A stretch of DNA of 63,880 nucleotides from Methanocellales archaeon (GTDB lineage: Archaea; Halobacteriota; UBA148; JAUWXC01): the NCBI GenBank assembly GCA_030018435.1, contig JASEEY010000006.1, forward strand, positions 1 through 63,880. The letters run 5' to 3'. Position numbers and translations under genes: made by a program. The notes below the pieces were generated by a model. That model worked only from the letters and a program-made list of their open reading frames with translations, was not told the DNA's origin and did no database searches. This document shows, one piece after another, positions 14,884-45,790 of the stretch; the stretch's first letter is position 1; every line of letters begins with the position of its first letter.

Positions 14884-15633
14884 TTGGCACTTAATGACTT
14901 CAACTTCGTTTTGGTAAGGTTGCGAAGAAAGTTGATGTACATAGCGATGGTGATAGGAATAGGAACGTTAGCATCCTTCCCTTTTATGGGTCATGTGTTA
15001 AACCGGATCAAGGCGGACATAACGCCACCCGATGTGCAAGTCATCGTTCTCACGCCTGTCGAGGCAATATTACTAGAGTTGAAAATGGCCTTGGCCGTTG
15101 GCATTCTTCTCGCATTACCATTCATGGCATACTACGCGCACGGAGCGTTAAAAGAGAGAGGAGTAGTACGTGGGATAAGAAAATCGTTCACACTTCTCAT
15201 CGGCATCTTGGCTGTGGTCATGTTTTTGCTCGGCATCTCTTACTCGTACCTCATCATGCTGCCAATTGTACTTAGCTTTCTGAATATGCTTGCAGCTGGC
15301 ACAGGAGCGATGAGCAATTGGTCGTTGGAGTCTTACATCTATTTCGTGGTTATGATGTCTTTAGCATTTGGACTGGTTTTTGAAATGCCGATAGTGCTAC
15401 CTCTGTTAGTGCGGTCTGGAGTGGTGGAATATAAGACGCTGGCAGGGCACAGGAAACATGCCATCGTTCTCATATTCCTCACGGCGGCAATTATCACGCC
15501 TCCAGATGTGGTGTCTCAGTTGATGATAGGGCTTCCGATGGTTTTGTTCTATGAACTCAGTTTGCTGATAATCAGACTCACCACCAAGACATCACGTCAT
15601 CCGATAACTGCCGATGATGGTGGAAGACAATGA
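14884..15633 (+). CDS. tatC: TatC, second twin-arginine translocase subunit
   Basis: 249 residues from a TTG at 14884, supported by GGAGG seven bases upstream. It is shorter and more diverged than its neighbour: the N-terminal HL-x-E-L-x-R motif is replaced by DFNFVLVRLRRKL, and the loop after helix 2 lacks the NPGL motif. The C-terminal TPPDVVSQLMIGLPM matches TatC. It overlaps the cytochrome gene by ATGA, so it is made together with the haem proteins. A specialised partner of the first TatC is likely. Confidence 0.85.
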   Translation: MALNDFNFVLVRLRRKLMYIAMVIGIGTLASFPFMGHVLNRIKADITPPDVQVIVLTPVEAILLELKMALAVGILLALPFMAYYAHGALKERGVVRGIRKSFTLLIGILAVVMFLLGISYSYLIMLPIVLSFLNMLAAGTGAMSNWSLESYIYFVVMMSLAFGLVFEMPIVLPLLVRSGVVEYKTLAGHRKHAIVLIFLTAAIITPPDVVSQLMIGLPMVLFYELSLLIIRLTTKTSRHPITADDGGRQ

Positions 15634-22308: not shown

Positions 22309-22437
22309 TGCGGGGGGTGAGATTTGAACTCACGAATCCCTTCGGAACAGGATCTTAAGTCCTGCGCCTTTAGCCAACCTTTTTGGTCAAGCTTTTTGCT
22401 TGCAAAAAGGTTGTTGGCCAGACTTGGCTACCCCCGC
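22309..22437 (-). tRNA. tRNA-Leu(TAA) with a 44-nt insert in the D arm
   Basis: Acceptor GCGGGGG/CCCCCGC, anticodon arm CAGGA-CTTAAGA-TCCTG (anticodon TAA), variable arm and T arm are intact and align base for base with the neighbouring tRNA-Leu(TAG). Relative to it, 44 extra bases lie in the D loop (about 22373-22419). The insert folds as AACCTTTTTG/CAAAAAGGTT. Without it the gene is 85 nt, the same as its neighbour. Read as an intron at a non-canonical site. Confidence 0.8.
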
Positions 22438-22486
22438 TCTTCGTGATTACGGTTTCTATTTTATTTGAAGTTGTTGCAATTGAGAA

Positions 22487-22571
22487 TGCGGGGGACGAGA
22501 TTTGAACTCGCGAACCCCTACGGGACAGGGTCCTAAACCCTGCGCCTTTAGCCTGACTTGGCAACCCCCGC
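22487..22571 (-). tRNA. tRNA-Leu(TAG)
   Basis: 85 nt with a long variable arm. Acceptor GCGGGGG/CCCCCGC with discriminator A, D arm GCC-AAGTCAGGCTAA-AGGC, anticodon stem CAGGG/CCCTG with loop TTTAGGA (anticodon TAG), T arm GCGAG-TTCAAAT-CTCGT. No intron. It serves as the internal reference for the interrupted Leu gene beside it. Confidence 0.93.
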
Positions 22572-22583
22572 ATTTTGTATTTA

Positions 22584-22691
22584 TGATCAACCTTCCCTTC
22601 TGCTTGCGCATGTTGAAATCCCTACGGGATTGCAACTCTCGCAGATGTTCCATCTGCGACAGAAGGAAGGTGTTTCTGTGAAGCAGGAACC
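22584..22691. repeat. Three-hairpin dispersed element, copy 1
   Basis: 108 bases, 105 identical to 45515-45622. Predicted fold: outer stem ACCTTCCCTTCTG/CAGAAGGAAGGT enclosing hairpin 1 (GTTG..AATCCC-tac-GGGATT..CAAC, 22612-22636) and hairpin 2 (TCGCAGATG-ttc-CATCTGCGA, 22639-22659), then hairpin 3 (GTTTCTG-tgaag-CAGGAAC, 22672-22690). All three base differences between copies fall in apical loops. It lies 12 bases upstream of tRNA-Leu(TAG). It could be a non-coding RNA or a mobile palindromic element. Confidence 0.75.
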
Positions 22692-22723
22692 CCCGCCTGC
22701 TTAATAGTGTTAACTATAGTAAT

Positions 22724-45443: not shown

Positions 45444-45494
45444 AGCTGCAGATCGAAGATCTGGCAGCTGCCTGCGAATCTTTGATTCGAGGCA
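45444..45494. other. Twin back-to-back hairpins, possible structured RNA
   Basis: Two hairpins of the same design abut: AGCTGC-AGATC-gaa-GATCT-g-GCAGCT (45444-45469) and TGCCT-g-CGAATC-ttt-GATTCG-AGGCA (45469-45494), each 11 pairs with a one-base bulge and a three-base loop. Flanks CTAC (45426-45429) and GTAG (45504-45507) could pair to close a three-way junction. It lies just after the DUF5806 gene and 21 bases before the repeated element. Confidence 0.5.
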
Positions 45495-45514
45495 CGAGCG
45501 AATGTAGCACTTTT

Positions 45515-45622
45515 TGATCAACCTTCCCTTCTGCTTGCGCATGTTGAAATCCCTATGGGATTGCAACTCTCGCAGATGTTCCATCTGCGACAGAAGGAAG
45601 GTGTTTCTGCAAAGCAGGAACC
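45515..45622. repeat. Three-hairpin dispersed element, copy 2
   Basis: Same orientation and 105 of 108 bases identical to 22584-22691. Differences are at loop 1 (TAC to TAT) and loop 3 (TGAAG to CAAAG). It sits 23 bases from the 3' end of tRNA-Arg. A further small hairpin (ACCTTTT-tct-AAAAGGT) fills the gap to the tRNA. Confidence 0.75.
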
Positions 45623-45644
45623 ACCTTTTTCTAAAAGGTTGTGA

Positions 45645-45790
45645 CGGACGTGGCGGGATTTGAACCCGCGACCTACAGCTCTCTCCTTCGAACCTCTTCC
45701 TTTCTCTTGACCTTTTTCTTGGGGTTTCGAAAGGGGCAAAGCCCCTTCGGTTAGGAGGCTGCCGCCCTATCCAAACTAGGCCACACGCCC
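45645..45790 (-). tRNA. tRNA-Arg(CCT) with a 71-nt intron
   Basis: Acceptor GGGCGTG/CACGTCC with discriminator G, D arm GCC-TAGTTTGGATA-GGGC, anticodon stem GCAGC/GCTGT with loop CTCCTA-A (anticodon CCT), T arm GCGGG-TTCAAAT-CCCGC. Exons are 45752-45790 and 45645-45680. The intron 45681-45751 lies at the canonical site and begins with a strong hairpin (CGAAGGGGC-ttt-GCCCCTTTCG). Confidence 0.9.

Follow-up and report, generated by a model that had tools for sequence, protein, structure and literature searches.

The 108-base repeat found twice in the window (the whole stretch of 63,880 nucleotides analysed here, from a Methanocellales archaeon; GenBank assembly GCA_030018435.1, contig JASEEY010000006.1) very probably consists of two miniature mobile elements, both non-autonomous, of which one sits inside the other; each is a two-hairpin unit of about 51 bp that lacks a gene of its own. 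The initial annotation, which offered either a structured RNA or a palindromic miniature element near tRNAs, missed that the cluster is a second, independent element (B) nested in a first (A); its element reading holds for the outer part, A, but a single RNA family does not. The genome from which the window derives (G000; 1.02 Mb in 29 contigs, 95% complete) belongs to a comparison set of 11 small, Methanocellales-labelled metagenome assemblies of one order (G000-G010). Copy numbers come from the lists of search matches, and sequence was read in stretches around those matches.

The two copies are, as first described, identical except for three differences (105 of 108 positions, blastn E value 1.8e-47), which lie at positions 42, 96 and 97, and both are indeed less than 25 nt from a tRNA gene (Table 1). 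The differences had all been assigned to apical loops. This is correct for two of the three, but position 96 closes the third hairpin of the fold, as a C-G pair in copy 2 and a U-G pair in copy 1, and is thus a stem change that preserves pairing. The right-hand end given to the repeat also cuts through the surroundings of copy 2, where the outer flank runs on as a hairpin.

Table 1. Features at and around the two composite copies in the window
Feature	Positions	Strand	Location or basis
Composite copy 1, A with B nested	22584-22691	+	5' side of tRNA-Leu(UAG); A-model and B-model covariance matches
A left part, TGATCA flank and first arm of hairpin 1	22584-22610	+	Joined to 22662-22691, gives the 57-nt sequence
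B, 51 bp, two hairpins, TGT...ACA ends	22611-22661	+	Match to covariance model R1 (76.5 bits)
A right part, closing arm of hairpin 1 plus hairpin 2	22662-22691	+	Sequence comparison
tRNA-Leu(UAG), 12 nt from copy 1	22486-22572	-	ARAGORN, Rfam
TATA-like box TTACTATA	22714-22721	-	Identified against the empty G003 site; putative promoter
Composite copy 2, A with B nested	45515-45622	+	3' side of tRNA-Arg(CCU); A-model and B-model matches
B in copy 2	45542-45592	+	Match to covariance model R1 (76.4 bits)
Short hairpin ACCTTTTTCTAAAAGGT, right-hand flank of A (target core)	45623-45639	+	Version present in G002 without A and B
tRNA-Arg(CCU), intron of 71 nt; 22 nt from copy 2	45645-45790	-	Rfam, ARAGORN
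D-loop intron of tRNA-Leu(UAA), an unfilled target core of AACCTTTTTGCAAGCAAAAAGCTTGACCAAAAAGGTT type	22376-22413	-	Sequence; same core in tRNA introns of relatives

In the relatives, blastn divides the 108 nt into bases 1-27 and 72-108, which are directly joined without the middle, and bases 28-78, which occur separately. This split rules out a single family, and the 108-nt unit as a whole is not present in the relatives. A search of G000 against itself returns the two full copies, four places that match approximately bases 28-78 alone, and others that match the outer parts alone. Excision of exactly 51 bp (the B segments in Table 1) from either copy restores a 57-nt sequence that is found uninterrupted in a tRNA-Thr intron of G002. 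The B site within A reads CTTGCGCA^GAAGGAAG, with the caret at the insertion point. The composite was probably copied as one unit after B had entered A, since B occupies an identical position within A in both copies, which have TGATCA plus 102 bp in common.

On its own, B is present in about 50 places. It was detected in G000-G004, G006 and G009, with none in G005, G007, G008 and G010 of the same order and nothing convincing outside the order; every B-holding relative recovered in a scan of public genomes carries the label Methanocellales archaeon. In a set of 20 copies, standard pairs make up 98.7% of pair cells and six pairs have changed on both sides; in slid-register controls, standard pairing drops to 26-42%.

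Precise gain of B is visible between orthologous genes. The gene for the CCA-adding enzyme is empty in G002 (TTTTTTGAGGGGTACAG) and longer by 51 bp in G000. In Trm1, G004 has TTTCCATG directly followed by CCAGAAAAG, and G006 has TGTCACAG...TTCAACA in between. The gene for a MinD-like ATPase is empty in G001 (GACG followed by AGTTAG) and filled in G003, with flanks as in G001, and also in G000, and ELP3 is filled in G002 and empty in G000. The DUF362, tmk, Endo_dU and PolB pairs are too diverged for exact junctions. It is because filled and empty orthologues show a gain of precisely 51 bp that A and B are considered mobile elements and not a structured RNA family. Target-site duplications, proposed beforehand as a sign of mobility, are missing for B: flanks match over 3, 5 or 6 bp in none of 36 copies and over 4 bp in two of 36. 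Mobility is nonetheless evident from the clean filled and empty pairs.

Instead of a duplication, B has a symmetric target, TTGNNNN^NNNNSAA, with insertion at the dyad. Among 48 non-redundant copies, T is found at -7 in 36 (p 3e-11) and A at +7 in 43 (p 2e-17), with supporting preferences for T at -6, G at -5, S at +5 and A at +6; all 53 B copies have at least one of T at -7 and A at +7. The TTG/SAA motif belongs to the target and not to the element, since it is already present in the empty Trm1 orthologue.

Many B copies lie within long open frames; both orientations and several reading frames are represented. Host genes recognised by Pfam encode the CCA-adding enzyme in G000; the large subunit of CPSase, Trm1, DUF362 and HisRS in G006; ELP3 in G002; and a class I tRNA synthetase, PolB, AsnB, TiaS, thymidylate kinase, GHMP kinase and Endo_dU in G004. 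In HisRS and GHMP kinase, B is N-terminal and could precede the true start. Aligned with the solved structure 1r89, the CCA-adding enzyme has 17 extra residues just before the VDVVPC strand; an example of the insert peptide lies within IPDETSGRVVIPKGFQG. The B sequence is open in four of six frames, and both B and the A copy in hisD are 51 bp, or 17 codons, so that insertions survive in genes as 17-residue segments, which may be tolerated as neutral. The RNase P RNA of G000 (L147:1250-1681, minus strand) also holds B (L147:1433-1483) and still matches its Rfam model over the full length, at 175 bits. Besides B, this RNA carries a core hairpin.

Element A, like B about 51 bp with two hairpins, has a different range of sites. 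Covariance-model matches read with ARAGORN place about 22 of 28 sites in tRNA introns; most of these introns are at the canonical 37/38 position, and one is a D-loop intron of a tRNA-Leu. The orientation is tRNA-sense wherever sequence was read. (For intron-rich tRNAs, the isotype given by ARAGORN is probably wrong in some cases, with a tRNA-Gly-like sequence called Phe and a tRNA-Leu called Ser.) The non-intron sites are the two window copies, hisD, the RNase P RNA of G009 (L229:216-635, minus strand; full-length Rfam match kept) and two further sites in G004. In G000, five of six A loci touch tRNA genes, for which the probability under random scatter is near 4e-10 if the tRNA footprint is taken as 46 tRNAs of 200 bp each. 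The proposed targeting of tRNA neighbourhoods thus applies to A, whose usual home is in fact inside tRNA introns, and not to B, which is found in many protein genes. The intron of tRNA-Arg(UCG) is 44 nt without A in G004 and 93 nt with A in G000 and G002, and hisD has gained 51 bp in frame in G000 only, at AACCTTTTGAGAAAAGC^TTGACCAAAA, a segment found in none of the nine other hisD genes read.

The empty hisD sequence, AACCTTTTGAGAAAAGCTTGACCAAAA, resembles the tRNA-intron core AACCTTTTTGCAAGCAAAAAGCTTGACCAAAAAGG. The target of A is probably a recurring hairpin core, AACCTTTTnnnAAAAGC^TTGAYCAAAA in tRNA orientation, in tRNA introns, tRNA flanks and hisD alike, and this common flank in unrelated genes suggests a target preference. 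Alternatively, the core hairpin at A sites could itself be an older small insertion. A has less sharply defined junctions than B, with short end repeats (AAGC, ACCTT) that could be duplications or part of the structure. In G004, a 1.07 Mb single-contig genome, tRNA introns of 303-366 nt (L223, L226 and L219) contain several repeated hairpin modules.

Both window copies are missing at the orthologous places in G003, and G002 has the short core TTTTGATCAAACTTTTTTCTAAAAAGTTTG alone at the place of copy 2, with neither A nor B. The right flank of copy 1 differs from the usual core, and this copy is not a simple insertion. Copy 1 is located between the TATA-like box and tRNA-Leu(UAG), and is thus probably transcribed as part of the 5' leader of that tRNA; the box is kept in G003 (TTATTATA), where it is 24 nt before tRNA-Leu. 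Copy 2, from its position, is probably transcribed in the 3' trailer of tRNA-Arg(CCU). Such copies could be tolerated because leader and trailer would be removed on tRNA maturation. A reading of the window copies as parts of split or permuted tRNAs was rejected, as both neighbouring tRNAs are complete and occur in relatives without the element.

Other insertions are present in the same neighbourhoods. A tRNA-Leu(UAA) at about 22309-22437 (minus strand), called by neither ARAGORN nor Rfam, has a D-loop intron of approximately 40 nt (AACAACCTTTTTGCAAGCAAAAAGCTTGACCAAAAAGGTT). Adjoining copy 2, positions 45448-45496 form a further two-hairpin element (GCAGATCGAAGATCTGGC...CTGCCTGCGAATCTTTGATTCGAGGCACG), and hairpins akin to it are nested in A in tRNA-Leu(CAA) of G000 (L227) and a tRNA-Arg of G006 (L234). 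The intron of tRNA-Arg(CCU) is shorter and of different sequence in G002 and G003. The tRNA-Leu(UAG) of G003 (L238, G003:C1 about 15244-15295) has a D-loop insertion of about 50 nt, which its G000 orthologue is without.

The symmetric target, insertion at the dyad and lack of duplication argue for a dimeric enzyme that would act at the DNA level. Such an enzyme, acting in trans, probably recognises the hairpins as well as the symmetric target, which is left unduplicated when the element is joined to it; mobilisation by a since-lost gene or a visiting element is possible. The search for a mobilising enzyme covered Y1_Tnp and RVT_1. Genes for Y1 transposases are present in G001, G005 and G009, but none was detected in G000, G002, G003, G004 or G006, five of the seven B carriers, and no reverse transcriptase was detected in any of the 11 genomes; both were consequently rejected as drivers. 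Carriage by viruses was likewise rejected: no viral contig matches the B pattern, and the single short pattern match for A, with the rest of A missing, is a chance one.

It is highly improbable that the repeat is a structured non-coding RNA family or a tRNA-associated regulatory RNA. The fold is very stable (z -5.9, with none of 200 shuffles as stable), A is in tRNA-sense orientation, and compensatory stem changes, which had been suggested as support for an RNA, do occur, several in B and few in A. However, the B copies lie in coding genes in either orientation, and compensatory changes in such copies indicate that the palindrome is maintained rather than a conserved transcript. Rfam recognises only tRNAs in the window, the nesting contradicts a single unit, and the locations are not conserved among relatives.

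Elements of the REP/BIME type, moved by a genome-encoded RAYT (Y1 HUH) transposase, would account for small palindromes in hairpin pairs, for occasional tandem arrays and for the lack of target-site duplication, and some of the genomes do have Y1 genes. Still, this explanation appears unlikely. The carriers without Y1_Tnp include G000 and the richest, G004 (97% complete, single contig), no GTAG or CGTC tag was noted at the element ends, and the copies are often intragenic and in frame. The targets of IS200/IS605 elements are one-sided, unlike the symmetric target of B. We consider it quite unlikely, too, that the spread concerns tRNA introns only, with A being a transposing intron that moves by RNA re-integration or via recognition of the bulge-helix-bulge motif, and the copies in hisD and the flanks being side products. 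As in the tRNA intron transposition described for Thermoproteales (Fujishima et al. 2010, as cited in PMC4090602), near-identical sequence is found in introns of many isotypes, at canonical and D-loop positions. Yet A is an insert inside a pre-existing intron core, as in tRNA-Arg(UCG), and not at exon junctions, and no intron among those read consists wholly of A with its ends at the splice junctions. A also occurs in hisD, in RNase P RNA and in tRNA flanks, a reverse transcriptase is missing, and B would be left unexplained.

If the two elements are mobile in the way proposed, they may belong to an undescribed class of archaeal selfish elements, a suggestion to which we give about an even chance: two-hairpin units of about 51 bp that integrate without duplication at a TTG-N8-SAA dyad by means of an unrecognised enzyme, nest in each other and are tolerated as 17 codons. 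Most descriptions of in-frame palindromic elements in essential genes come from Rickettsia, and the mainly open-access literature that was searched yielded none from archaea. To our knowledge, in-frame selfish palindromes have for two decades been almost confined to Rickettsia and Wolbachia, with no known mechanism. An independent case in small archaeal genomes opens the mechanism to testing, as it offers clean filled and empty pairs and a defined symmetric target. Through repeated entry of one short module, such a class would go on extending core enzymes and RNase P RNA, and it would lengthen tRNA introns in a genome of about 1 Mb; it could be a simple source of lineage-specific protein loops and long tRNA introns.

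Among known systems, A and B resemble miniature inverted-repeat transposable elements (MITEs) in being small, non-autonomous, palindromic and multicopy, with empty and filled orthologous sites between close relatives and a precise gain. They differ in that B lacks a target-site duplication and in the shortness of its terminal inverted repeat, about 3-5 bp (TGT/ACA). The search for Y1_Tnp and RVT_1 returned no parental transposon. The Rickettsia palindromic elements (RPEs) and their Wolbachia counterparts (WPEs) are short palindromes that occur in frame in many unrelated housekeeping genes, which remain unbroken, and also outside genes, in lineage-specific families (PMC10969869, PMC3767692, PMC3733652). 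Similarly, B, and A in hisD, are in frame in intact genes, including hisD and those for the CCA-adding enzyme, Trm1, ELP3, AsnB, PolB, TiaS and CPSase. We know of no dedicated transposase for RPEs or WPEs. The differences are several: the hosts are archaeal and not Rickettsiales, the length is 51 bp and not 100-150 bp, the two hairpins are separate and adjacent, and the copies occur in both orientations and several frames, at a symmetric target in the case of B. The families also nest and enter tRNA introns and RNase P RNA. By analogy, B appears closest to the RPEs in its mode of life, but with its length and archaeal host it is not classed as an RPE by descent, and no sequence relation is claimed.
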